Positions 1 through 19,273 of a stretch of DNA of 30,004 bases are shown here, one piece after another. Source of the stretch: a virus; IMG/VR virus record IMGVR_UViG_3300044701_000435, positions 1 through 30,004 of that record. One strand, given 5' to 3'. A program made the translations under genes and the position numbers. How positions within the stretch are numbered: the first letter of the stretch is position 1; each line of letters starts with the position of its first letter. The notes below the pieces were generated by a model, which was given only the letters and a program-made list of their open reading frames with translations, had not been told where the DNA came from and ran no database searches.

Positions 1-236
1 ACAGCGGTGCTTCCAGTAACAACCTTCAGCCGATCAGTCGCCACCGTCAGATCGCCGGTGATGGTGGCGGAGGCGAGCGTGGCGGTGGGACTACAAGCGA
101 GGATGTTATTGATGCTGATTCGCTTGGTATTCCCTGAAGCCGGTGGAGTTGCTGACACATCCACAATCGGGATCATGTCATTTGCCGGATCGGCTGATGT
201 AAGGTTGTCTAGTGCTGTGATCTTTGAGTCTGCCAT
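1..236 (-). CDS. Tail fibre/structural protein, N-terminal part (cut by window edge)
   Basis: An open frame begins with ATG at 236, one base after the stop of the upstream gene (TGATATG junction), and runs off the left edge after 78 codons with no stop. The N-terminus (MADSKITALDNLTSADPAND, then MIPIVDVSATPPASGNTKRI) is a pattern I recognise from phage fibre or appendage proteins. It is followed by a Thr/Ala-rich stretch (TATLASATITGDLTVATDRL) typical of beta-rich fibre shafts. It is the last gene of the head block. I infer that it is the beginning of the protein whose S74-bearing C-terminus lies at the right edge. This would need sequence missing between the ends, because 236 bases leave two unpaired bases and the right edge begins on a codon boundary. 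Confidence 0.75.
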   Translation of the reverse strand, partial: MADSKITALDNLTSADPANDMIPIVDVSATPPASGNTKRISINNILACSPTATLASATITGDLTVATDRLKVVTGSTA

Positions 237-237
237 A

Positions 238-471
238 TCAGTAAACGGTTAGAATGAATTTTCCGAGGTCTTCTTGTAAAAGGAAACTAACTCCATCCTC
301 CAGCACTATGCTGTCGAATGTACCAAATGAAATAACCAGCTTGCTCACGCCGTCCTCTTGCAGGAGGAAGGTTTCGTCCTCTTGGAGAACATCCCTCCGC
401 ATAATCGGAGGCTCAGGCATGACCGCATTCAGCGGTCGTGTCCTGTTGATGGATGTTCCGATTGAGATCAT
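238..471 (-). CDS. Small structural protein with LQED-type repeats
   Basis: A 77-residue protein starting with ATG at 471 and overlapping the upstream stop (TAATG). I do not recognise a named family. The middle and end hold recurring short units: VLQEDETFLLQEDG, then VLEDGVSFLLQEDL, separated by a hydrophobic strand-like stretch (KLVISFGTFDSI). Alternating hydrophobic and acidic residues suggest a small beta-structured particle protein. A similar LLQES...LILQE pattern occurs in the neck protein at 27302-27757. Its place between capsid and fibre genes suggests a head decoration, head completion or fibre-base role. This is inferred from context only. Confidence 0.6.
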   Translation of the reverse strand: MISIGTSINRTRPLNAVMPEPPIMRRDVLQEDETFLLQEDGVSKLVISFGTFDSIVLEDGVSFLLQEDLGKFILTVY

Positions 472-731
472 TAGCTGCGCGCTAGGAAAGCCACAACGCT
501 ACCGGAGGAGATCTGGAATCCAGTAATCTCACCGGGAAGAGGTTGTCCCGCTGGAATGGTTTTCGACGACCAAGTGCCGCTGATATTAGTGCCAGTGATC
601 GACGTGAAAACGGTTGGCTCGATAGGAACCAATGCAGACCAGTTGCCGGTCTGAGCGGCGGTTGATGTGACAAGCTGGAATCCCTGTCGTCCCATGCTGT
701 ACTCGGTTGCAATGTCTGCTTGAACGGCCAT
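471..731 (-). CDS. Small head-associated structural protein
   Basis: An 86-residue protein starting MAVQADIATEYSMGRQGFQL. It is rich in Thr, Ser, Gly and Ile with predicted beta strands (TVFTSITGTNISGTWSSKTI) and has no charged or membrane segment. The start is an ATG preceded by an A-rich, SD-less leader (CCGAAAAACAAA). It lies two genes after the capsid gene and is coupled to the next gene by TAATG. Small proteins of this look are common in the head block of phages and could be decoration or fibre-base proteins, but I cannot name the family with certainty. Confidence 0.65.
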   Translation of the reverse strand: MAVQADIATEYSMGRQGFQLVTSTAAQTGNWSALVPIEPTVFTSITGTNISGTWSSKTIPAGQPLPGEITGFQISSGSVVAFLARS

Positions 732-748
732 TTTGTTTTTCGGTTAGA

Positions 749-782
749 GGGGAGGTCACCGGAACTTTCCAGCAACCTCCCC
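749..782 (-). promoter_or_regulatory. Perfect 8-bp hairpin between small head genes
   Basis: GGGGAGGT at 749-756 pairs perfectly with ACCTCCCC at 775-782 around an 18-nt loop, inside the 61-bp gap between the genes at 793-969 and 471-731. In the transcribed direction the 3' arm is followed by TCTAACCGAAAAACA, not a U tract. It therefore does not look like a standard intrinsic terminator and may instead be an mRNA stability or processing element. The direct repeat CGGTTA (741-746 and 790-795) flanks it. Confidence 0.45.
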
Positions 783-792
783 AATTTTACGG

Positions 793-969
793 TTAACCTT
801 TACGAACTTTCGGTGCTAAGGCCCCCTGAATCCACAGTACGAGCTTGCCTCCCTCAGGAACAGAAGCAGTGTTGAAATTAGTGCGTTGGAGATCCGCGCT
901 AATCTCGGGACCAGATACCAGCTTAGTCTTGCCGGTCTTGTCCACTGCTATGGTGGTTGCGATACGCAT
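793..969 (-). CDS. Small hypothetical head-region protein
   Basis: A 58-residue frame that starts with ATG at 969 (MRIATTIAVDKTGKTKLVSG) 11 bases after the capsid stop and ends with TAA at 793. It has a beta-like N-terminus, a polar middle (SADLQRTNFNTASVPEGGK) and a basic tail (APKVRKG). It sits immediately downstream of the capsid gene, where head decoration or stabilising proteins are often encoded. I recognise no family. Support comes from the intact frame, the tight spacing and the absence of any competing frame. Confidence 0.6.
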   Translation of the reverse strand: MRIATTIAVDKTGKTKLVSGPEISADLQRTNFNTASVPEGGKLVLWIQGALAPKVRKG

Positions 970-980
970 ATCCGTTGGGA

Positions 981-3122
981 TTAAGCGGTGATGAGAACCT
1001 CAGCTTGCGTCTTATCGCCAGCCGCGACACCAAACATGATATCGTAAGAAGCCATGTGCGAGCGGGTAGCGCGGCTGTACCAGACCGACAGCAAGACCGA
1101 CAGACCGTTCTGGCTCTCAACAGTGCGCTGTTCAACAAACTCACCAGCGATCATGCCAACCGGCAGACCGGAAGCGATAGCGATAGCGTCACGACCACAG
1201 ACGAAGCCAGCGGTGTTGGCAATCGCACCAGTCCAGTCGTTCTGCTCAAAGATGCCTTCAAAGCCAAACAGACCGTTATTCAGCGGACCATAGCGAGCAT
1301 CAGGGAAGGTGTTGGCAGCGGCAGAGAACTGCAAGCGAGCCAGATGTCCACCGTCCAACAGAAGCAGCTTCTGGCGATAGTTCTTAGCGAGAGCCAAGAT
1401 CGCGGGAATGTCGCTAGTGTCGAAGTTAGCAGCAGTGCCAATTGTAGTACCCGCACCATAGTTGGCAGCGGTCATCACAGCGGTAATCTTCTTGCTGATA
1501 CCGAGAGCGAAGACATCAGCAGAACCAGCAGCGAGATCAGCGAGCGCAAACCCCTGATTGAGTTCCTGCTGCGTGACAGCAAACAGCTTACTGATCTGGT
1601 TAACAGTGACAGCAGTAGCGGCAAGCTCGGAGTCGTTGCTGGTCTCAAAGTTGGTCGCGTTATCAACAGTCGCAGAAGAACCGGCTTGGACGAACTTTTT
1701 GACCTGAACGGTGGCTTTCGGTCGCAAGTTATCCAGACCAACGTTGCGAGTGAAGTTGCCAACCATCGCCAACTTGGTCCCCATCTCAGTGATAACCGCA
1801 TCAGCGAGATAATCCACCACCAGACCAGCGGCAAAGGTGTTGCCGTTCTGGGGAGCGATCAGGTTGCTCTGACGGAGCAACTCAGAATGATTCTCGATCA
1901 AAAAGCGACGGCGGTCAGCACCAGCCTTCATCTTCTTGTGCTGCTCCAGCAGCGGGTTGCCGAGGTTCTCGATTACGGGTCGCACCGGCTCGGGAGCGGG
2001 AGCGGCGGTGGGAGCCTTCAAGCTGGCTTCCAGAGCGGAGAGCTTCGCCAGAATAGCGGTGAGATCAACGGAAGCGGCAGGAGCAGCCGCAGCCGTCACA
2101 GTAGTGGTATCGGACATATTTGTGTCGGTTGTTTGTGTTGGTTGCGGCAAAGAATCTTTGCCAGTTTCGCTGACAGCTTGATTGCCATCCGCAGAAATCT
2201 TGTCGTCAGGAGATTCATTCTCCTCATTTTCCTCACGCTCCAATTGAGCGTACAAAGCTTGGAACCAGTCTCGACCGGCAGCACCTCCCCAAAGGTTGGC
2301 AGCTACGTCAGCCGGTGTATTTGGTTCAGCTTCTAAGAATCGCGCATTGCGACCCCACCAAGCGTTTGCTTTTTGGACCTTCGCTTCGGTAGGTGCTTCT
2401 CCAGCAACTAGCGATTCAGCCTCAAGAACAGTTGCCTTCTCAAGACCGTCACCAGCAAGACCTTCAGCGTATTGCTCAAGACCTCTGCGGAGGTTGTTCT
2501 TGACCGTCTCAGGAGCGGTCTTAGTAACAGCGCGAGGATGCCATTTAGCAGCCATCGCAAGCTGTTTGATCGGCTTATCCACAAGACCAAAAGCAACAGC
2601 TTCAGGAGTAGTAAACCAAGTCTCTGCTTTCATCGCAGCGCGGATAGACTCAGGAGAGCGTCCGGTCTTTTTAGCGTACACTCCAACCAGCACCTCAGCG
2701 TGTTGGTCCAAAGCGTCAGCCATCTTCCGCATATCTTCGGACGTACCCGAAGCCATACCAGAAGGATCGTGAATCATCATCAGAGCAGCATCAGCCATCT
2801 CGACCTTATCGCCAGCAAGCGCGATAATCGAAGCAATGGAAGCCGCAATGCCGACAACGCGAGTGGTCACCGGAGCGCGACGACCGCGCAACTGGTTGTA
2901 AATCGACAACCCATCCCACACATTGCCACCGGGAGAGTTAATCTCGACAAGCAGCGGACCATTACCCACTTCGTTGAGAACATCCGAGAACTGCTTGCCA
3001 GACAGACCAGAACCGCCAAACCAGTCTTCGCCAATCTGGTCAAAGATCTGAATGGTCGCAGTCTCACCAGCGGAAGCCGCTGGAGCGTAATACAACCAAT
3101 CGCTTTTCTTAGTGAAGCTCAT
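981..3122 (-). CDS. ClpP-like prohead protease / major capsid protein fusion
   Basis: A 713-residue protein starting with ATG at 3122 in a 4-base overlap with the portal stop. Residues 1 to about 190 are a ClpP-type serine protease. They contain the strand LLVEINSPGGNVWDGLSIYN, the nucleophile region GIAASIAS (candidate Ser95), the MMIHDP motif (His118) and ETWFTTPEAVAFGLVD (acidic residue near 167, in place of the ClpP Asp). A long acidic/Gln/Thr linker follows, then a scaffold-like delta domain with a predicted helix (LTAILAKLSALEASL), and from about residue 410 an HK97-like capsid domain (NTFAAGLVVDYLADAVITEM). Prohead protease/capsid fusions are known in other phages. The protease would cleave internal scaffold during head maturation. 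Met336 is a plausible internal start that would give a 378-residue capsid precursor. Confidence 0.9.
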   Translation of the reverse strand: MSFTKKSDWLYYAPAASAGETATIQIFDQIGEDWFGGSGLSGKQFSDVLNEVGNGPLLVEINSPGGNVWDGLSIYNQLRGRRAPVTTRVVGIAASIASIIALAGDKVEMADAALMMIHDPSGMASGTSEDMRKMADALDQHAEVLVGVYAKKTGRSPESIRAAMKAETWFTTPEAVAFGLVDKPIKQLAMAAKWHPRAVTKTAPETVKNNLRRGLEQYAEGLAGDGLEKATVLEAESLVAGEAPTEAKVQKANAWWGRNARFLEAEPNTPADVAANLWGGAAGRDWFQALYAQLEREENEENESPDDKISADGNQAVSETGKDSLPQPTQTTDTNMSDTTTVTAAAAPAASVDLTAILAKLSALEASLKAPTAAPAPEPVRPVIENLGNPLLEQHKKMKAGADRRRFLIENHSELLRQSNLIAPQNGNTFAAGLVVDYLADAVITEMGTKLAMVGNFTRNVGLDNLRPKATVQVKKFVQAGSSATVDNATNFETSNDSELAATAVTVNQISKLFAVTQQELNQGFALADLAAGSADVFALGISKKITAVMTAANYGAGTTIGTAANFDTSDIPAILALAKNYRQKLLLLDGGHLARLQFSAAANTFPDARYGPLNNGLFGFEGIFEQNDWTGAIANTAGFVCGRDAIAIASGLPVGMIAGEFVEQRTVESQNGLSVLLSVWYSRATRSHMASYDIMFGVAAGDKTQAEVLITA
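2115..2144 (-). promoter_or_regulatory. Candidate internal translation start for the capsid precursor
   Basis: Codon 336 of the fusion is an ATG (2117-2115), in frame, followed by MSDTTTVTAAAAP. It is preceded inside the coding sequence by a C/A-rich stretch that includes AACACAAACAACCGACACAA. That resembles the leaders in front of true gene starts elsewhere in this genome (at 9423, 22983 and 26028). I infer that ribosomes may initiate here to make extra capsid precursor without the protease. No SD sequence is present. Confidence 0.45.
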
Positions 3123-4684
3123 TCTGTTTTCTTAGCTCGCGGCTTGCGTTGTTTCTTTACTACAGCAGTGACAACAGTGTCGTCAACTACTGGTGATGTA
3201 TTACCATTATCAGGAGCAGCAACTGGAGCAGGAGCGTCGTCCTCAGTGTCAATTGCAATAGCAGCAACCGGAACGCTCGGAGCTTTCTCTTTCTGGATTG
3301 TAGAAATCTCAGAAACATCCAAGCCGTACTTTCCAGCCAACTGACGAACAAACAAAGCTTGTTGTGCTTTAGCTTCTAGCGAAGAACGCCAGTCAAGACC
3401 TCTCGCACCATAGACCTCATCGTAAGTCACAATACCAGCTTCCAACTCAGCCAACTGAGCCGCAGAGTTACGGCCAACATCGACATTTGGAGAGCGCGGA
3501 GCGGTAATTGAAACTTCGTACCAATCCGCTGGAGCGTCATTGAGAGCCGGATCTGTCTTGATCGCGTACTCCATAACGTACTCGTAAATACGTCGAGCCG
3601 CCGAAGCCATCACTTGATGCCGAGACTTGAACCAGACCGCAGACATATCTAGCGCACCGCGATAGACAGTTCCCTGCATCGACTCTGGATAGACAAGAAC
3701 GTAAGGAATACCAACGCCAGCACAGACCTTTTCGGTCAGTTGCCGCCAGTATTCGCGCATATTTACACCGGGACGCTCCGTTGCGAACTGCTCAAATGAA
3801 TCACCGTTCTTCAGTACTTTAACAGCAGATCCAAATACCTGCTCGTAGTAATTCTCAGCGGTGTTCTGAGTGGTTCCAGCCGTACCAGCGCGGAGGTTGC
3901 TGGCTTGGACCTCACCGGAAACGGTCTTAACGATCTGAGCGACCGAAGCTCCTAACTTACAAGCTTCCATCTCCAACTTTTGAAGGTCGTCAAGATCGTG
4001 AAGATCGTTGATAACACTAGAGACAAACGGAAGACCGCGAAGCTGTGCGGGACGATTTGGTTCGTAGATATGCACTACGGAGTCCGCGCTGATGCTGCGG
4101 ACATCAACCAGATTCCCCTGACTCTTCTCGTTACCGATAAAGTAAGCGACAGCGCGACCAGTGCGAGGGTCAAAGCGAACACCGTCAAATACGGTTTCGT
4201 CTGACTCCATTCCTTTGGGAGTCGCAATTGATTGAGCTTCTATAAGCTGCAATCGCGGCTTGCCGCTTTCACCTTTGGTTAGCAGCAAGAAACTCTCGCC
4301 ATCGTAGAACCAACCGCGAGCGGCTTGCCCCATCAGAGTGCCAAATGATTGGCGAGAACCGATGTCGGGATAGCGGCTCCAAATATCAAACCACTTCTTA
4401 GCCGCAAGATTCCAAGCCGGATCGCTTGAAGCCGGTTGAACAGAAAAGCTTGAACCAACTGTGTAAGACTCAAACAAGTCTCCCAATCTGTTCATTATCG
4501 CGTTGTTCTGTTCAAAAAACCGCGATTTGCGAACAATGGCTTGACGGGTCGAACTGGTTACGTCGAAGCGAGCCGAAGTGTAAGACGTATCGAGATACGA
4601 ACGACGCAGAGACTGACCGGCTCCTTCGTATTTGTTAACGGGAGCGGGAAACAGCTTGTTGGCTATGGTTTGCAGGATTCCCAT
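3119..4684 (-). CDS. Portal protein (lambda gpB-like family)
   Basis: A 521-residue protein between the large-terminase region and the protease/capsid gene, the usual place for a portal. The N-terminal half carries features typical of the lambda portal family: YLDTSYTSARFDVTSSTRQA, QNNAIMNRLGDLFESYTVGS, and later RGLPFVSSVINDLHDLDDLQ followed by a Cys/Ala-rich helix (EMEACKLGASVAQIVKTVSG). The C-terminus is Pro/Val-rich and ends in a basic KKQRKPRAKKTE tail. The portal forms the dodecameric DNA channel at the head vertex and docks the terminase. The start overlaps the upstream stop (TAATG), and the stop overlaps the capsid-fusion start (ATGA). Confidence 0.9.
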   Translation of the reverse strand: MGILQTIANKLFPAPVNKYEGAGQSLRRSYLDTSYTSARFDVTSSTRQAIVRKSRFFEQNNAIMNRLGDLFESYTVGSSFSVQPASSDPAWNLAAKKWFDIWSRYPDIGSRQSFGTLMGQAARGWFYDGESFLLLTKGESGKPRLQLIEAQSIATPKGMESDETVFDGVRFDPRTGRAVAYFIGNEKSQGNLVDVRSISADSVVHIYEPNRPAQLRGLPFVSSVINDLHDLDDLQKLEMEACKLGASVAQIVKTVSGEVQASNLRAGTAGTTQNTAENYYEQVFGSAVKVLKNGDSFEQFATERPGVNMREYWRQLTEKVCAGVGIPYVLVYPESMQGTVYRGALDMSAVWFKSRHQVMASAARRIYEYVMEYAIKTDPALNDAPADWYEVSITAPRSPNVDVGRNSAAQLAELEAGIVTYDEVYGARGLDWRSSLEAKAQQALFVRQLAGKYGLDVSEISTIQKEKAPSVPVAAIAIDTEDDAPAPVAAPDNGNTSPVVDDTVVTAVVKKQRKPRAKKTE

Positions 4685-11917: not shown

Positions 11918-12173
11918 CTGTTGGGTAATAGTGAAGCGTTGGATAATTACCGCGAGTCTTGGTGTCGATGCGGAACTTCTTGGACCGCATCAAACCAAGC
12001 TTAACGGATCTACCGAGAACTTGACCGGCAGCGTTTGGAGTGACACCCCATTCATCTGACCATTGAGCAGCCGTCTTCCAGCCTTCTGGAACCTCTTCGG
12101 GTTGTTTCTGAATGGCAGACCGGAGTTGCTTCAAAAGCTCGGCAGAGTCCATTTCTTTTCGTTTTGCGGCCAT
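11889..12173 (-). CDS. Small protein with winged-helix-like segment
   Basis: A 94-residue frame (MAAKRKEMDSAELLKQLRSA...). After a charged helix comes GWKTAAQWSDEWGVTPNAAG and QVLGRSVKLGLMRSKKFRID, a pattern like a winged-helix DNA-binding domain in which a helix pair is followed by a basic strand (RIDTKTRGNYPTLHYYP). Start is taken as ATG 12173; ATG 12152 is an alternative. It overlaps the end of the metallophosphoesterase by 43 bases. A replication or regulatory DNA-binding role is inferred. Confidence 0.6.
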   Translation of the reverse strand: MAAKRKEMDSAELLKQLRSAIQKQPEEVPEGWKTAAQWSDEWGVTPNAAGQVLGRSVKLGLMRSKKFRIDTKTRGNYPTLHYYPTDAISLKNKP

Positions 12174-12880
12174 TGGTGAAGGTAGAGTTGCGCTGAGTTG
12201 TCGGTGTATTCGCCAAAAACTATCCCATGAGACCAAGCTAGGGTTGATCGTCGTTTGGTTGCGTAATCCATCGCAGGAATGTCTGCAAGCGTTCCGACAC
12301 AAAAGCCAATCGGATTTGATTGAGTTCGACCAGTCGCTTGACCGGCTCGGTGAGCGTGAGCCACAACGCAGTTGCCAAATGTTTCAGCGGAATCACGCAA
12401 GAAGTTCTCACTGTAGAGTATCCCGTGTCCCCATTTAAATCCGCCCAACCGATAGAAGGAGCGATCAAGTCCGTCATTGTATTTGATAAATGTATGACAG
12501 TGTTTCTCAATTGGTTTTAGCATTCGTTCCCATACAGCTTCGGCGAATCCTCTTACAACAGCGTTATGGTGATTAAGATATTTCTTAGCGCGTTCATCGT
12601 GATTTCCCATTGTGAACACAGTAGGACGTAACTCATTAAGGAACTTTGCTCCTTCTTGAATATCGTCCAGATAATCATCGGCTTGATCCGAGTCGTTTTG
12701 GTCTCGGAGTGAACCAGACCGCAATGCGGCAAGATCGTAAGCGTCCCCGAGATGGATTACTTCGTCGGGTTTGAACTTCTCTCGGAACAGCAGCACCGCA
12801 GCGAGTGCATCTTGATTGGCTCGGTTTCCATGACTGCAACCAATCGCCATGACTCGACGTTGGCTCTTTGTGATGTTCAC
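12131..12880 (-). CDS. Calcineurin-like metallophosphoesterase
   Basis: About 249 residues with the ordered motifs of the metallophosphoesterase fold (numbered from the GTG at 12880): AIGCSHGN (13-19), VIHLGDAYD (42-49), FTMGNHDER (89-97), GHG (about 151-153) and VVAHAHRAG (173-180). These bind a two-metal centre and hydrolyse phosphoesters. The first motif reads C-S-H-G-N where the family usually has an Asp before x-His. The substrate (nucleotide, nucleic acid or protein phosphate) is unknown. The start is uncertain: GTG 12880, TTG 12889 or ATG 12850 are in frame, and the conserved first strand needs residues before ATG 12850. Confidence 0.8.
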   Translation of the reverse strand: MNITKSQRRVMAIGCSHGNRANQDALAAVLLFREKFKPDEVIHLGDAYDLAALRSGSLRDQNDSDQADDYLDDIQEGAKFLNELRPTVFTMGNHDERAKKYLNHHNAVVRGFAEAVWERMLKPIEKHCHTFIKYNDGLDRSFYRLGGFKWGHGILYSENFLRDSAETFGNCVVAHAHRAGQATGRTQSNPIGFCVGTLADIPAMDYATKRRSTLAWSHGIVFGEYTDNSAQLYLHQWPQNEKKWTLPSF

Positions 12881-12947
12881 AATTGGCAATAATCATAGAA
12901 TGACGGCTTAATCAAGACACACTCGCGTTGATAATCGTGAGATATGG

Positions 12948-13349: not shown

Positions 13350-13546
13350 TTTGTCTCTGTTACTATCCAGTCGAAGTTGTTCTGCCATGATTCATTAAGT
13401 TCGTTGTAAGTGTTATTTTTGATCTTCCATGTAGAAGGATCTCGTTTTGATTTAGTGTGGCGACAGACTAGTGATATTGTGAGTTGTGATATTTTAGTGT
13501 TACGGAGTTGGTGTTCTTGTGGTAGCTCGCGGAGTTTGGTAATCAC
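13346..13546 (-). CDS. Small hypothetical protein of the coupled cluster
   Basis: A 66-residue protein beginning at GTG 13546 (VITKLRELPQEHQLRNTKIS). The start is fixed by AAGGAGG seven bases upstream (13554-13560) and by the 4-base GTGA overlap. It is basic and polar with several Trp residues (STWKIKNNTYNELNESWQNN; FDWIVTETK). No family recognised. It belongs to the series of tiny overlapping genes at 15004-13257, where anti-defence or host-takeover factors are commonly found in phages. That role is inference. Confidence 0.6.
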   Translation of the reverse strand: MITKLRELPQEHQLRNTKISQLTISLVCRHTKSKRDPSTWKIKNNTYNELNESWQNNFDWIVTETK

Positions 13547-13770
13547 GGCTTGTCCTCCTTTGCTCGCGTCCATTCTCCGTTCGCATCTGCAATCCGAATC
13601 TTTCCAGATTTTGTGACTCGGATTTGTAGCGAGTTTCTTCCCTGATGCTTTGGTGTTTCCAGAAGCAGCCATACCCAGCCCTTCTCTTTGTCGGAGAATC
13701 CGCGAATGACTTTTACGGCACCCCAATCGAATCCGTACTGCGTATCTGCGAAGTGGATTTGAGAAGTCAC
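13543..13770 (-). CDS. Small hypothetical protein of the coupled cluster
   Basis: A 75-residue protein with GTG start at 13770 (MTSQIHFADTQYGFDWGAVK), supported by AAGGAGG at 13778-13784 and a GTGA overlap. The predicted secondary structure is mostly beta: VWLLLETPKHQGRNSLQIRV, TKSGKIRIADANGEW. The C-terminus reads AKEDKP, nearly the same as the tails of the two genes upstream, because the coding end doubles as the ribosome-binding site of the next gene. Confidence 0.65.
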   Translation of the reverse strand: MTSQIHFADTQYGFDWGAVKVIRGFSDKEKGWVWLLLETPKHQGRNSLQIRVTKSGKIRIADANGEWTRAKEDKP

Positions 13771-13949
13771 GGCTTGGCCTCCTTCTCATTCCACAGCAGC
13801 AGATCAGCGCGGAGTGCGTCGTTCTCGGATTCGAGTTGCTTGATCCGATCCTCCAGTTTTCGCACCTGAAAGGCGATTGCGCGGAGTTCGCGTGGATGGT
13901 TGCAATCGGGAGACTCCGCTAGGAAAAGGATTCGTTCCTCAACACTCAC
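13767..13949 (-). CDS. Small coiled-coil protein of the coupled cluster
   Basis: A 60-residue protein starting at GTG 13949 (MSVEERILFLAESPDCNHPR). The second half is a clear coiled coil with heptad leucines (FQVRKLEDRIKQLESENDAL, then RADLLLWNEKEAKP). AAGGAGG at 13957-13963 lies seven bases before the start, and the start overlaps the upstream stop. The combination suggests an oligomerising small protein. No family recognised. Confidence 0.65.
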   Translation of the reverse strand: MSVEERILFLAESPDCNHPRELRAIAFQVRKLEDRIKQLESENDALRADLLLWNEKEAKP

Positions 13950-14152
13950 AGCTTGGCCTCCTTGGCTTTGAGCATCGCGTCGGCGATGTAGAACGCTCGC
14001 TTGGCTATTTCATCAGCATTTCGATCTGATCCTCTCGATGCTTTTTCCAACGCAGCCGCTGCGAAGTAGTCGCGGAGGGTCATGCCGTCGTTGTGTTGTA
14101 TTCCTGCCGGTGTCGGAAACGCCGGTCCGCCGTCGTTGATTGGTTGGTTCAT
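13946..14152 (-). CDS. Conserved small phage protein (DGGPAFP...GMTLRDYFAAAAL type)
   Basis: A 68-residue protein starting at ATG 14152 (MNQPINDGGPAFPTPAGIQH), in a 4-base overlap with the upstream stop and seven bases after a GGAGG. The signature DGGPAFP followed by GMTLRDYFAAAALEKA is one I recognise from many small, functionally unassigned phage and prophage proteins. A helical C-terminus (ADEIAKRAFYIADAMLKAKE) follows. The function is unknown in this family. Confidence 0.8.
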   Translation of the reverse strand: MNQPINDGGPAFPTPAGIQHNDGMTLRDYFAAAALEKASRGSDRNADEIAKRAFYIADAMLKAKEAKL

Positions 14153-14523
14153 TTCGATTCCTCCACGACCCCACACGGGAGCCAGTTCTTACCACCGTCG
14201 GTGCTGTGTTCGCGTTCGTCCAGCCACATATCTCGGTCAGCTTGGTTTGATGTCCATGCGAGGATGCTTCGGTCATGCAACGCTCTTTTGTACCGTATCC
14301 ACGCCCCCAGCGGAACCTCATCCGCAGTCCACGCTCGCAGCGTTGCGGTGGGTTTTATGCGGTAGTCACAGTTATCGAAATCCCAACACGGGTCATCTGT
14401 ATCGGACCAATCTGGTTTCAAAGACTCTTTGGGATTCCAATGCTTCCCGCACCGCTGGATTTCGTATCCGTCCAAATACGCCTCCATAATTAGGATAGCG
14501 GCTCGTGTTTCATTGCGTGTCAT
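14149..14523 (-). CDS. Conserved hypothetical phage protein
   Basis: A 124-residue protein starting at ATG 14523 with AAAGGAG five bases upstream. Segments such as GYEIQRCGKHWNPKESLKPD, WDFDNCDYRIKPTATLRAWT and ADEVPLGAWIRYKRALHD resemble uncharacterised proteins in phage accessory regions that carry a W...YRIKP motif. Rich in Trp, Asp and Cys (Cys25, Cys46, Cys52 region and one near the end). No enzymatic motif is visible. It overlaps both neighbours by ATGA. Confidence 0.7.
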   Translation of the reverse strand: MTRNETRAAILIMEAYLDGYEIQRCGKHWNPKESLKPDWSDTDDPCWDFDNCDYRIKPTATLRAWTADEVPLGAWIRYKRALHDRSILAWTSNQADRDMWLDEREHSTDGGKNWLPCGVVEESK

Positions 14524-14678
14524 TGTTGCTCCTTTCGCTTGAGATATTCACTAACCGCTTCGTCTGCTACGTATTGTAGTTTGTAACCTTTCTTTTGTGC
14601 GTATTCCTTCAGCCGCTTGTGCGTGTCATCGCTGACGACGAAGATCTTGGGAGTGGGTCGTTTGGGTTTGATGTTCAT
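14520..14678 (-). CDS. Ribbon-helix-helix-like DNA-binding protein
   Basis: A 52-residue protein starting at ATG 14678, in an ATGA overlap with the lysozyme-like gene stop. A basic arm (MNIKPKRPTPK) precedes a strand IFVVSDD, then two helices (HKRLKEYAQKKG and LQYVADEAVSEYLKR) in the order of a MetJ/Arc-type ribbon-helix-helix fold. Proteins of this kind dimerise and bind operators through the strand. It is a likely transcription factor or a plasmid-antitoxin-like protein. No toxin partner is evident nearby. Confidence 0.7.
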   Translation of the reverse strand: MNIKPKRPTPKIFVVSDDTHKRLKEYAQKKGYKLQYVADEAVSEYLKRKEQQ

Positions 14679-15004
14679 TTAAGATGCTTTTTGACTTTGT
14701 TCCAGTAAGTGAGAGTCGCTGACTTCCGGTGACCAGTTGGACCACCGTTCCAGATTCTCGCGGCTTCTTCGTTGGTCTTACCGGCTGCGTACCGACTCAA
14801 ATAGATCTCGCAGACCTGACGAGCCGCAACTCGGTTGGTCATCTGCTGGTGAGTGTAGTGCGTACCAGCGATCCGGTTAACGTCCACCACAACGCTCTTG
14901 TGGATCTGGAGCGCACCGATTGCCGCGCCACCGTCGCCGATTGCATTGTCTCGACCGTTGGACTCCACGGTGATGAGAGCCGCGATAAGAGGTCCAAGAT
15001 TCAC
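14675..15004 (-). CDS. Lytic transglycosylase/lysozyme-like protein (candidate endolysin)
   Basis: A 109-residue protein starting at GTG 15004, chosen because AAGGAG lies four bases upstream and the start overlaps the previous stop (GTGA). It has a transglycosylase-like core: LIAALITVESNGRDNAIGDG with candidate catalytic Glu14, GALQIHKSVVVDVNRIAG (the G-x-x-Q-I pattern), and WNGGPTG near residue 85. It would cleave peptidoglycan. No signal peptide or membrane segment is seen, so export would need a holin. It sits among tiny accessory genes, far from the membrane-protein genes at 28256-28908. Confidence 0.75.
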   Translation of the reverse strand: MNLGPLIAALITVESNGRDNAIGDGGAAIGALQIHKSVVVDVNRIAGTHYTHQQMTNRVAARQVCEIYLSRYAAGKTNEEAARIWNGGPTGHRKSATLTYWNKVKKHLK

Positions 15005-15195
15005 TTGGCTCCTTTCAGCCAAGCTTGCGCTTTGGCTTGATACAGTTCTTCGGCTGAGAGCAAGCGACCGCTGTTGTCGCTGATTCCTATAAGCTCCCGA
15101 GTGTGGAGCCATACTTCCCGCGCTCGCAGTGCTTCCAGAATGCTGGAGTGCTGACTTAACGAACGGTTATCTTTGTCTTTGCAATGGTATTTCAT
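15001..15195 (-). CDS. Small hypothetical protein
   Basis: A 64-residue protein from ATG 15195 (MKYHCKDKDNRSLSQHSSIL), ending AQAWLKGAK and overlapping the lysozyme-like start. The leader is C/A-rich without an SD. An alternative start is the ATG at 15282, which overlaps the upstream stop (TAATG) and would add 29 residues with no obvious structure. The protein is helical and charged (EALRAREVWLHTRELIGISD). No family recognised. Confidence 0.55.
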   Translation of the reverse strand: MKYHCKDKDNRSLSQHSSILEALRAREVWLHTRELIGISDNSGRLLSAEELYQAKAQAWLKGAK

Positions 15196-16193: not shown

Positions 16194-16613
16194 TTAAGCG
16201 TCGATTCTCACGCTGCAACCGGAAGCGTTGAGAGCGTAAGATTTGGTCGCTGAGATCTGGCAAATCTGGCTGTCGTCGAGCCAGACCCGTTGAGTGTCGG
16301 TGATCGCATCGGTCACCGCTTTGATGAGGTTGTCCAAGTCCGGCTTTTTGCAGTGCCAGACTGGTGAGTTTGCTTTCACGCTGCCGTCCCGCTTCAGATG
16401 CGCTTTGGGTCTTGGCATGAAGAAGTCTAGCGAAACCCTAACAGGATGCGCCACAGTCGATTCTGGAGCGTTTGCGACGGTCTCTCGACGCACCGCTTGC
16501 TTCCAAGACTCTGCTGAGTCCGGCGTGTAGACTCCCGCATGACCTCCGCGCACAAACGCTTTGACTCGCGGTTGGGCTTTCGGGACTCCGCTCACAAATA
16601 AGTCAACCTTCAC
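16194..16613 (-). CDS. rusA: RusA-like Holliday junction resolvase
   Basis: A 139-residue protein starting at GTG 16613 (VKVDLFVSGVPKAQPRVKAF), which overlaps the upstream stop (GTGA). An ATG at 16667 would add 18 residues without structure. The diagnostic motif KKPDLDNLIKAVTDAI gives Asp92, Asp94 and Lys98, and VWLDDSQI gives Asp113/Asp114. These match the metal-binding residues of the E. coli enzyme (Asp70, Asp72, Lys76, Asp91). The enzyme resolves four-way junctions made by the recombination genes next to it and can also debranch DNA before packaging. Confidence 0.9.
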   Translation of the reverse strand: MKVDLFVSGVPKAQPRVKAFVRGGHAGVYTPDSAESWKQAVRRETVANAPESTVAHPVRVSLDFFMPRPKAHLKRDGSVKANSPVWHCKKPDLDNLIKAVTDAITDTQRVWLDDSQICQISATKSYALNASGCSVRIDA

Positions 16614-16930
16614 GGTGAGTGCGTGATTTCTTGGATGCGTCCGGTGACTCGCGGGTTTGCGTACCACCAGCCGGTGCTGCTCTTGTCAGCGGTTGCATCG
16701 CAGTCTCCGTCGAACATTATGTGCGTTCCAGCGACTAGCTGGTCAGCGATCTCAATATCCAACGGATCAAACGACCGGAACGTGACCCGCTGTGCGTAGG
16801 GTTTCCCGTTTGCCAACTTGCGGGTCTCAAACTCGATGACTGCTAGCAAGAAGGACTTGCCCTCAGCGGTTTGGTGGACTTCAGCGTCAGCGTGGAGCCG
16901 TCCAAAGCCTCTGGCCCAAAGATGCCTCAT
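16610..16930 (-). CDS. Single-stranded DNA-binding-like protein (OB fold)
   Basis: A 106-residue protein. The sequence GFGRLHADAEVHQTAEGKSF, FLLAVIEFETRKLANGKPYA and FDGDCDATADKSSTGWWYAN reads like the strand order of an SSB OB fold (G-R-L, a mid-region V-x-F, then W). It lacks the acidic DDIPF end seen in the other SSB-like protein of this window. It couples to MazG-like and RusA genes by ATGA and GTGA overlaps, so it probably serves recombination or repair with Bet. SSB identity is inferred from pattern. Confidence 0.65.
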   Translation of the reverse strand: MRHLWARGFGRLHADAEVHQTAEGKSFLLAVIEFETRKLANGKPYAQRVTFRSFDPLDIEIADQLVAGTHIMFDGDCDATADKSSTGWWYANPRVTGRIQEITHSP

Positions 16931-17361
16931 CGAGTGTATCCCTCCAATCGAGCCGGTGAATAGCTTGGAGACTTGACGATCTTGCCATCATTGCGACGGA
17001 CAATGTGTCGGTTTTCGCCAACTCGGTGAGAGCGGGAGTCGGCTGGAATGCAGTCGATCTCATCGTCGCTCCAGCACTTGCTCATGTTGGATCGGTGGAT
17101 CTCGCAGAATGCAGCGTCCACTTGATGCGGTGAGAACCCCGCAGCCAGCGCGGCTCCATAGACGACGTACAAGAGGTCGCCAACTGCGTCCAAATACTCT
17201 TTCGCGTTGGTCGCTTCGGACAGTTCTTGAGCCTCCTCATCAATCAGCCGATACCGGAGATTCTGCGTCACCGGATCTGGCATGATCGGAGCAGATGGGG
17301 CGTACTGCTGAAAGGTCCGCATAAACTCGCGGACCAGTTCCATTGGATGGGTTTGATTCAT
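16927..17361 (-). CDS. MazG-like nucleotide pyrophosphohydrolase
   Basis: A 144-residue protein with the all-alpha NTP pyrophosphohydrolase motif: RYRLIDEEAQELSEATNAKE (acidic cluster around 41-46) and EYLDAVGDLLYVVYGAALAA (Asp58, Asp62) bind Mg and hydrolyse NTPs or dNTPs to NMPs. The C-terminus, AAFCEIHRSNMSKCWSDDEI then NDGKIVKSPSYSPARLEGYT, is typical of the phage-type family. Phage MazG-like proteins have been proposed to affect nucleotide pools or alarmone levels. That role is inferred here. Overlaps upstream (ATGA) and downstream (ATGA) genes. Confidence 0.85.
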   Translation of the reverse strand: MNQTHPMELVREFMRTFQQYAPSAPIMPDPVTQNLRYRLIDEEAQELSEATNAKEYLDAVGDLLYVVYGAALAAGFSPHQVDAAFCEIHRSNMSKCWSDDEIDCIPADSRSHRVGENRHIVRRNDGKIVKSPSYSPARLEGYTR

Positions 17362-18461
17362 TTGGTCTTGGTAAGTGTCGGTTGAGAGGTCTTCGATTCA
17401 GTGCAGCCGTCGAGCAGAGCGTCCAGCTTGGCTGTCAACTGCTGACCTTTGAATCCGGTCGCAGTCTTGATCGCTTCTTTGAGCTTCGTTTTGTTCAGCG
17501 TAATTGCGGGACTCAACTGCTCGTAAGTTCCGAGTTCTAAGAAGCGAGAAGCCACTTTCTCGGAGTCAGTGATGGACTCGCGGACCGATCCGTCTTTGAG
17601 CGTCCAACCGTCGATTGCATCTCCCTCACCGAGTCTCCTTCGAGCTTCAGCGCGGCAAGCTTCAATCACAGCTTCGGCTTGCGCTGCTCGATCCAAGAAC
17701 GCTGCGAGCGTCTGGTTGGTCAGCGTCGCTGCAATCGCGTCGGGAGTAATTCCATCGGGAGCGTCAGTGAGCGGTGGCGCAACGGCCAGATCTCGCGCTT
17801 CTTTGCAGTAGGGTTTGCCTTTGCAATACTTACAAGCCGCTTCAGACGGGGTGCGCGGTTGACCAACCTTCTGGACCGCTTTCATCAGTCCGTTGGATTC
17901 CAGAATCGCGGAATGAATGTCTGACGACTCGTAAACCGCAACGCTTGGAGGTCCAGCAAGAGGCTGGATGATTGCGACCGTTATCCGATCCATCGTGAAT
18001 CCCCAAGACTCATCGAGCAGCGCGACCAAGCACCGCAACTGGAGGTTCTCCGCAGCGTTATCGACCAATCCTCTGCCGCTCTTGTAGTCGATAATCAGAC
18101 CATAGAGCATTCCTTCATCGTTTACGGTGTAGATAACGTCCGGCTTGCCGCTCCAGAGCTTGTTTCCGTCTTTGTCGAGCGACCATAGACGTTTTTCTCG
18201 GAAGCAGTTCGTCTCAAGCTCACCAAAGGTTGCTTTGACAAGCTCAAGCTCTTGTTCTTTGCAACGGTCAATGATCCACGTTTCATCGGTGGTTAAATTG
18301 CCCACCGGCTCCAGCGCAAGAGCAGCATGGATGCGATTTCCAATCGCAGCGTCTCCGCTGGACTCGACCTCAGCAACTTGACGCTCTAGATCAAAGCTTC
18401 CAAGACAAGCAGCGTATCGGCTGGCTGCGGACGCTGACGGTAGGTTTCCACGCTCATCCAT
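17358..18461 (-). CDS. Cas4/RecB-like PD-(D/E)XK nuclease with Fe-S cysteines (DUF2800 type)
   Basis: A 367-residue protein starting at ATG 18461, in an 8-base overlap with bet. N-terminal SASAASRYAACLGSFDLERQ carries Cys19. GNRIHAAL gives His45. The catalytic core is SGKPDVIYTV (Asp108) and LIIDYKSGRG (Asp125-x-Lys127), followed by Gln141. The three cysteines CKYCKGKPYC (210, 213, 219) with Cys19 match the 4Fe-4S arrangement of Cas4 and AddB-type nucleases. It probably supplies 5'-3' end resection for Bet-mediated annealing in place of lambda Exo. Confidence 0.85.
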   Translation of the reverse strand: MDERGNLPSASAASRYAACLGSFDLERQVAEVESSGDAAIGNRIHAALALEPVGNLTTDETWIIDRCKEQELELVKATFGELETNCFREKRLWSLDKDGNKLWSGKPDVIYTVNDEGMLYGLIIDYKSGRGLVDNAAENLQLRCLVALLDESWGFTMDRITVAIIQPLAGPPSVAVYESSDIHSAILESNGLMKAVQKVGQPRTPSEAACKYCKGKPYCKEARDLAVAPPLTDAPDGITPDAIAATLTNQTLAAFLDRAAQAEAVIEACRAEARRRLGEGDAIDGWTLKDGSVRESITDSEKVASRFLELGTYEQLSPAITLNKTKLKEAIKTATGFKGQQLTAKLDALLDGCTESKTSQPTLTKTK

Positions 18462-19134
18462 TGGAAACCTCCTGCTGAATGGACTCGCTGGTGGTGACGG
18501 TAGCCGTCGGAACCGGATTGTTTTCGGGGAGGTACTCGTGAGGTTGAGGCTCAACCTTTGGCTCCAACTTGCTGCGGAAGATCGGACGCGACGGAGTGAC
18601 GTTGACCGAGACCGAAGGTGCGGCCTCCTCTTCGTCCACGATTCCACTGAACCCAAACGCTACGCGAGCGCATTGGATCAACGCTTTGTGTCGAAGCATT
18701 CTCCGAGGGTTAACTTTCCACGGCTCGCTTGGTCGATAGCACTCCGAGAAATACTCGGTGACCTCAACCGGATGCGAACGCTCTTTGTGGTGGATCGTCG
18801 CGGTTACACTGAACGGCTTGCCGTCTTTGTCTCCAGTCGTGAACTGGATGCCGTTGAACTGCGGATGCGAGTTCATCATCTTGATCCAGCCATCGACGGA
18901 TACCACCGGCTGAATCCCACCGTTGCGAGCAGGGAATGCGTAGATTTCTCGCGTAAACGGGTTGAGTCCGTACTGGTTAGCGGTGACGACGAACGAGAGC
19001 AGTTCTTCGTTGGTCGCTTTGGGCACCAGAGTTGCCTTCAGCGTCTCCAGCAGCTTTGCCGGTTCAACGCTGAATCGACTCGCCATTACTGCGAGCGCGG
19101 ACTGCTTTTGCTGAGGTATTAGTTCGTTTTTCAT
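18454..19134 (-). CDS. bet: Phage recombination protein Bet (RecT family)
   Basis: A 226-residue single-strand annealing protein. Conserved features: MASRFSVEPAKLLETLKATL, ELLSFVVTANQYGLNPFTRE, IYAFPARNGGIQPVVSVDGW, then KMMNSHPQFNGIQF and ALIQCARVAFGFSGIVDEEE. Together they are diagnostic for the RecT/Bet family, which anneals complementary strands and promotes recombination. Start is ATG 19134 (MKNELIPQQKQ). The C-terminal third is a Pro/Glu-rich tail. It overlaps the nuclease gene by 8 bases, a classic annealase-exonuclease pair. Confidence 0.93.
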   Translation of the reverse strand: MKNELIPQQKQSALAVMASRFSVEPAKLLETLKATLVPKATNEELLSFVVTANQYGLNPFTREIYAFPARNGGIQPVVSVDGWIKMMNSHPQFNGIQFTTGDKDGKPFSVTATIHHKERSHPVEVTEYFSECYRPSEPWKVNPRRMLRHKALIQCARVAFGFSGIVDEEEAAPSVSVNVTPSRPIFRSKLEPKVEPQPHEYLPENNPVPTATVTTSESIQQEVSNG

Positions 19135-19273
19135 TGGTCTTCTTCGGTCTTCCGCCAAGCTTGCCGTTCTGGCGAGCCGCAGCGGATTTAGCCGGTGACT
19201 TGGACGCACCAAGCTCCCCTGCGATATCGCGGAGACTTGCGGCAAAGATGCGCTGACAGTGCGGACATTTCAT
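19064..19273 (-). CDS. Small basic CxxC protein
   Basis: A 69-residue protein starting MKCPHCQRIFAASLRDIAGE. It has one CPHC pair and no second cysteine pair, so it is at most half of a zinc ribbon unless it dimerises. The rest is basic (SPAKSAAARQNGKLGGRPKK), a motif I recognise from many small basic, probably DNA-binding, phage and bacterial proteins. It overlaps bet by 71 bases in another frame. It would be the first gene after the candidate promoter at 19285-19313. Confidence 0.5.
   Translation of the reverse strand: MKCPHCQRIFAASLRDIAGELGASKSPAKSAAARQNGKLGGRPKKTNEKRTNTSAKAVRARSNGESIQR

Follow-up and report, generated by a model that had tools for sequence, protein, structure and literature searches.

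Repeated 18-base boundary modules that look like plug-and-socket joints for the trading of small phage genes

Four small genes joined by three copies of one module

The window, by which we mean the whole stretch of DNA analysed here, is a 30,004-base linear viral contig from IMG/VR. On its minus strand, four small genes (A to D) are joined end to end by three near-identical 18-base junction modules. Gene A (14152-13946) begins with ATG and encodes a 68-residue, phrog_2201-like protein of unassigned function with the C-terminus KAKEAKL. The genes that follow all begin with GTG: gene B (13949-13767) encodes a coiled-coil-like protein of 60 residues and belongs to the commonest of the cassette families described below, gene C (13770-13543) is a cassette gene for 75 residues, and gene D (13546-13346; 66 residues), which recurs in relatives downstream of cassette clusters, lies 3' of the last module. 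Module 1 (13963-13946; AAGGAGGCCAAGCTGTGA) is composed of the stop codon of gene A, a Shine-Dalgarno (SD) sequence and the start codon of gene B; module 2 (13784-13767; AAGGAGGCCAAGCCGTGA, the consensus form) and module 3 (13560-13543; AAGGAGGACAAGCCGTGA) join B to C and C to D in the same way. Any two of the three copies have one or two mismatches. In each, AAGGAGG sits 7 nt before the GTG, the stop and start codons form a 4-nt GTGA overlap, and the upstream protein receives a tail of KEAKL, KEAKP or KEDKP followed by its stop. A, B, C and D show no similarity when compared with one another. A sequence-only reading of this DNA had described a nearly constant 18-mer at three successive boundaries, with a KEAKP/L or KEDKP tail, a strong SD and a GTGA overlap at each and unrelated genes in between; all of these features are confirmed at 13963-13543 of the minus strand. 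The window holds no further match to the 18-mer at up to three mismatches, with 0.06 expected from dinucleotide shuffles.

The genes around the cluster are likewise on the minus strand. On one side, the conserved flank of the variable region is a lysozyme-like gene with a weak Pfam match to SLT-like transglycosylases (14675..15112). The first gene after it encodes a 52-residue Arc-like/RHH small protein (14520..14678), and the next (14523-14149; 124 residues) overlaps gene A through ATGA and has an SD sequence that differs from the module. The conserved flank on the opposite side is a metallophosphoesterase (12131..12889; phrog_221). An SD is absent from nearly all of the structural and replication genes of the window that were checked, which bears out the statement that an SD is missing from most other starts; because the 14523-14149 gene and gene A, both upstream of the modules, also carry an SD, the SD-rich part of the window extends a little beyond what had been proposed. 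Either the translation habits of the host or an independent origin of the cassettes may explain why a strong-SD cluster lies in such SD-poor surroundings. None of the cluster genes was matched by a defence-system model. A scan of the modules for the sigma-70-type promoter consensus returned no promoter-like site, and no stem-loop was found; the three window copies share no common fold, unusually good folding being confined to the middle copy.

Distribution and conservation of the module

Other genomes also carry the 18-mer. In IMG/VR, the exact sequence AAGGAGGMCAAGCYGTGA is present in at least 119 stretches among the matches listed, many of which have two to seven exact copies. Near-copies (up to three mismatches) number 330 in 232 deduplicated loci, as compared with one in reversed-sequence controls; a single viral record contains up to 11 of them, always on one strand and amid small genes, and an open gene is present on both sides at 242 of 250 core sites. 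When loci were gathered through gene A alone, the CCAAGCC spacer was present in 15 of 40 AAGGAGG-N7-RTGA sites. A sister dialect of the module is seen in G017, the 32,085-base record of L061, in which eleven copies on one strand occupy positions 100-3053, mostly in the ATGA form AAGGAGGCCAAGCCATGA; a relative of the window terminase was not detected in this record. Bacterial and archaeal genomes totalling 257 Gb contain the exact consensus 31 times, at isolated, unrelated sites, none with the upstream extension or with window genes, and the inference of a prophage origin or of a host from cellular genomes was abandoned on these grounds. A search of cultured phages for the extended module gave weak matches only, with E-values of 0.08 or worse.

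A further sample was chosen without the 18-mer, by locating loci through the phosphoesterase and lysozyme-like flank genes. Thirty-four contigs, the window included, span both flanks, with a gap of 1.0-4.6 kb that holds 0-7 modules; at least one module is present in 29 of them, and none of the 34 has a module outside the gap or in antisense. When the 295 four-base overlaps in these gaps are sorted by mismatches to the module, 90 have 0-4, 14 have 5-7 and 191 have eight or more. This bimodal distribution indicates that the module is a distinct class of junction and not the end of a continuum. The recurrent joints AATAAGACCAGAAAATGA and TGGAAGGAGTGCAAATGA also appear several times in the gap region of the spanning contigs.

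Conservation reaches upstream of the 18-mer as TGGnnCAAAGCC. A single large group of upstream genes accounts for most cases of this extension, which some unrelated genes also carry, and the shared homology sometimes amounts to about 24-30 bp (CAAAGCC, then AAGGAGGCCAAGCCGTGA, then GC). The lysine codon at -6 is AAA in 148 of 157 cases, as against 44% within the interiors of the same genes, and the alanine codon at -3 is GCC in 142 of 167, as against 23%. The near fixation of third positions means that the nucleotides are conserved, through descent or repeated recombination, and not the peptide.

The module is also shared across terminase types. Among 20 module-bearing records of 29-62 kb (contigs that may be incomplete), only two have a relative of the window-type large terminase or any GpA-type terminase, and six have a match over the cut-off to a different terminase family. 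All 20 confine their module copies to one strand, and most have one module cluster of about 0.2-3 kb; in G011, copies lie near both contig ends. The record sizes and the terminases argue for different lineages with one common cassette pool. A distant cultured relative of the window is the Verrucomicrobia phage P8625 (ClpP 41%, portal 26%), in which the module is absent; its likeness to the window portal (3122-4684, minus) and ClpP (981-3122, minus) hints at Verrucomicrobiota hosts. The 713-residue frame at 981-3122 carries its ClpP-type protease near the N-terminus (residues 56-184), and the remainder may be the capsid protein, which is a separate gene in P8625.

Exchange of cassettes at module junctions

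Exactly one gene, of 42-190 residues, occupies 200 of the 254 intervals between neighbouring modules. A stricter clustering (loose single linkage merges the coiled-coil genes) sorts 247 one-gene cassettes into 95 families, of which 66 have a single member, and different small genes thus sit between conserved copies of the module. Neither the genes nor their order is fixed: 143 observations include 110 distinct adjacencies, nine pairs of families occur in both orders, and the window order A-B-C is replaced by A-C-B in L041, B-A in L033 and C-B in L021. The family of gene B (cassette family 0) accounts for 88 of the 247 cassettes. Its members are short coiled-coil-like proteins with no Pfam match over the cut-off and no PHROG match, and two of them often adjoin in one phage.

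Comparison of individual cassettes places the limits of shared sequence at the modules. Over gene C and its modules, the window and L021 are 99.2% identical (100% between the modules), the flanks are unrelated, and identity breaks inside the 18-mer at both ends. Copies of gene B with 96-98% identity are carried by L005, L006, L007 and L033, which have no other DNA alignable to the window, and by relatives whose identity to the window elsewhere is only 72-75%. Across the shared copies of window genes B and C, identity is 96-99% with its edges at the modules. Whole cassettes are inserted or deleted cleanly from module to module in seven contig pairs; L068 and L407, for instance, have 99.3% identity to either side of a difference that amounts to exactly two cassettes, with a 24-bp exact repeat at the outer modules. 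In L034 and L032, a hybrid module takes its left part from one side and its right part from the other. Colinear gaps with all four ends at modules are only 13 of 294. In 138 pairs that share the downstream gene only, the sequences match at about 97% beginning with the start codon, and the match declines toward background through the module, and 94 pairs that share the upstream gene only give the mirror-image profile; the partner switch in both sets falls inside module positions 0-17. The proposal that small genes are exchanged at a modular boundary is supported by these data and largely upheld: breakpoints do lie within the 18-mer, and that its homology drives the exchange is what we infer.

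Partner switching was also counted in the flank-gene sample, for genes shared at ≥93% with another contig. Module junctions had switched partners in 66 of 86 cases (77%), other SD overlaps in 43 of 106 (41%) and junctions without an SD in 38 of 134. Fisher's test gave p = 5e-7 when modules were compared with other SD overlaps and 6e-12 when they were compared with all junctions outside the module class, values that overstate independence since the contigs share ancestry. A looser breakpoint measure on the flank-gene loci gave 65% versus 52%, which is not significant (p = 0.10). Exchange thus also takes place at other boundaries, and the module is a favoured site rather than an exclusive one.

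Proposed mechanism, alternatives and related systems

We think it likely that the 18-mer has two roles as a boundary module, serving as a translational coupler and as a short homology for annealing recombination. In the mRNA, the module would supply a strong SD and a stop/start overlap to the next gene, in which case a gene placed between two modules would be read within the operon; the presence of these elements suggests that translation is coupled across modules. In the DNA, it would provide a short homology between two phages or between two sites of one phage, and annealing or crossover within it would swap, insert or delete one-gene cassettes and leave the neighbours intact. The module homology would then drive exchange rather than merely mark tolerated breakpoints, and the cassettes may carry host-adaptive functions. 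The candidate recombinase in the window is a Bet/RecT-like single-strand annealing protein (18454..19137, minus; phrog_252, PF03837), and an exonuclease (17358..18464, minus; phrog_69, PF10926/PF12705) is its likely partner; the two would perform the exchange. Both are found, with a RusA-like Holliday junction resolvase (16194..16667, minus; phrog_140) and an SSB-like protein, in 34 of 36 close relatives as well as in the window. In the 20 diverse module-bearing records, a RecT-family match is present in 11 (several weak, eight over the cut-off) and ERF in none; with matches in only 11, a single recombinase for all of them cannot be claimed, and the exchange enzyme may differ between lineages. 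For pairing, Redbeta needs a minimum of 23-27 bp and RecA one of 31-34 bp (PMC3945230). The 24-bp repeat of L068 and L407 agrees with the Redbeta minimal segment and the extended module comes close to the published lengths, whereas in several of the indel cases the exact repeats between outer modules are only 4-18 bp, below those segments. All of the evidence is computational and comes from metagenome contigs.

The module might instead be purely a translation signal, in which SD and overlap have converged, illegitimate recombination moves genes at any gene boundary and selection keeps the intact operons. SD-bearing NTGA overlaps are indeed common here, those other than the module switch partners at the 41% noted above, and an in-frame AAGGAGG necessarily encodes K-E. 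An SD has no need, however, of a spacer such as the CCAAGCC that dominates, nor would it account for nearly fixed synonymous sites upstream of it, for an exact 18-mer seen only 31 times in the 257 Gb of cellular genomes, or for a rate of partner switching at module junctions about double that at other SD overlaps; the junctions of the lambda nin region, by comparison, differ among themselves at 5-13 of 14 positions. We hold this reading to be unlikely. Shared translational control of the kind proposed for SAS elements, with a bound factor co-regulating the cassette genes and exchange following from the shared element, deserves some weight, although we doubt it as a full account. The location at ribosome-binding sites, the single orientation and the many unrelated small genes all resemble what the passages on SAS describe (PMC3203893), but the three window copies have no common fold and control alone leaves the intra-module breakpoints unexplained. 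Such control is compatible with the two-role module, and the two are not mutually exclusive.

Three further readings meet more direct obstacles. Because KAKEAKP or KEAKP ends many unrelated proteins, a C-terminal peptide (W-x-K-A-K-E-A-K-P, as a tag or degron) could be what is selected, yet the codon test led to its rejection: the Lys and Ala codons are each nearly fixed to one synonym, unlike those of gene interiors, and the residues vary (A/D/V, P/L) where the SD and GTGA nucleotides are constant. We consider a peptide tag highly improbable. Chimeric assembly through short repeats is a natural concern, since the module-bearing data are all metagenome assemblies and repeats invite misjoins. 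Repeats of 18-24 bp are shorter than the usual final assembly word lengths. Against misassembly, 89 of 461 junctions are found again, at ≥90% identity across about 218 nt, in another deduplicated locus, which makes artefacts unlikely, and almost all modules preserve the reading frame, with the copies on one strand and in one region; we give this explanation hardly any credence. Site-specific recombination at the 18-mer, as in integrons, would suit the rows of one-gene cassettes in the same orientation with a recurring separator site. It would also call for features that differ here: no hairpin is common to the sites (an integron-like hairpin was considered and dropped, as unusually good folding is limited to one window copy, the middle one), neither an attC-like hairpin nor an IntI-type integrase was recognised in the window contig among the genes scanned, and crossovers are spread along the module instead of keeping to one position. 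This makes an integron-like system very unlikely.

The two-role module has partial counterparts among known phage systems. The lambda nin region and lambdoid boundary sequences are reportedly the subject of work by Kroger and Hobom in 1982 and by Clark et al. in 2001. The classical case of overlapping genes in a chain is the nin region (PMC8022706), and it resembles the present cluster as a chain of small dispensable genes, with an SD embedded in stop/start overlaps, mosaic exchange at gene boundaries and a phage-encoded annealing-type recombinase. Its joints, in contrast, are not copies of one sequence, whereas here one 18-mer stands at up to 11 joints and in different lineages; it lies between the replication genes and the late activator of a lambdoid early operon, whereas the window cluster is bordered by a lysozyme-like gene and a phosphoesterase. 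Among the window cluster genes, no nin homologues were recognised. The SAS and ESAS of Cluster K mycobacteriophages are, in the passages that describe them, ribosome-binding-site repeats of unproven function for which a role in translation is proposed, the SAS consensus GGGATAGGAGCCC typically lying 3-7 bp upstream of the start (PMC3203893). As far as those passages go, SAS and the module share a position at the ribosome-binding site, an association with unrelated non-structural genes, (nearly always) one orientation and scarcity in cellular DNA, SAS being absent from hosts and the module rare in cellular genomes. The SAS consensus is, however, distinct from the module AAGGAGGCCAAGCCGTGA, which runs from the last codons of the upstream gene through its stop codon to the start of the next gene; inverted-repeat extensions have no counterpart at the module, and the SAS passages do not mention cassette breakpoints.

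Arbiol in 2010 and Comeau in 2014 are said to have described PeSLs as mobile regulatory cassettes of T4-type phages. In the part of the literature on T4-type phages that deals with them, these promoter and stem-loop boundary elements are said to mediate the shuffling of small genes in hypervariable regions (PMC4503421). Gene shuffling bounded by a repeated element, as set out there, is also what the module displays, but a PeSL consists of a promoter and a terminator stem-loop, whereas the module is embedded in coding sequence and has no sigma-70-type promoter site or shared hairpin. Redbeta and RecT carry out relaxed recombination between phages (PMC3945230, PMC2327257). The Bet/RecT-like protein and exonuclease of the window lineage, and a repeat length near the Redbeta minimal segment, fit that precedent; exchange by Redbeta or RecT uses any available homology, whereas here a boundary sequence recurs. 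The module is a coding-embedded combination of the ideas met in nin, SAS and PeSL, with direct breakpoint evidence.

These observations bear on a dispute that dates back to the modular theory of phage evolution, between dedicated short boundary homologies and random joins filtered by selection. Hundreds of copies, sharing across terminases and a comparison with ordinary boundaries in the same genomes make the dispute testable by counting. A metagenome scan for the 18-mer also gives a handle for pulling out many small, mostly unnamed phage genes that are traded, and the modules between them look like plug-and-socket joints for that trade. We suggest, tentatively, that several unrelated lineages, probably sharing hosts, may keep a common open-format island and that the module may be selected for exchangeability itself. 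If this is true, a small gene flanked by the 18-mer could be inserted, swapped or removed and would be translated at once, as a standard part across packaging systems.
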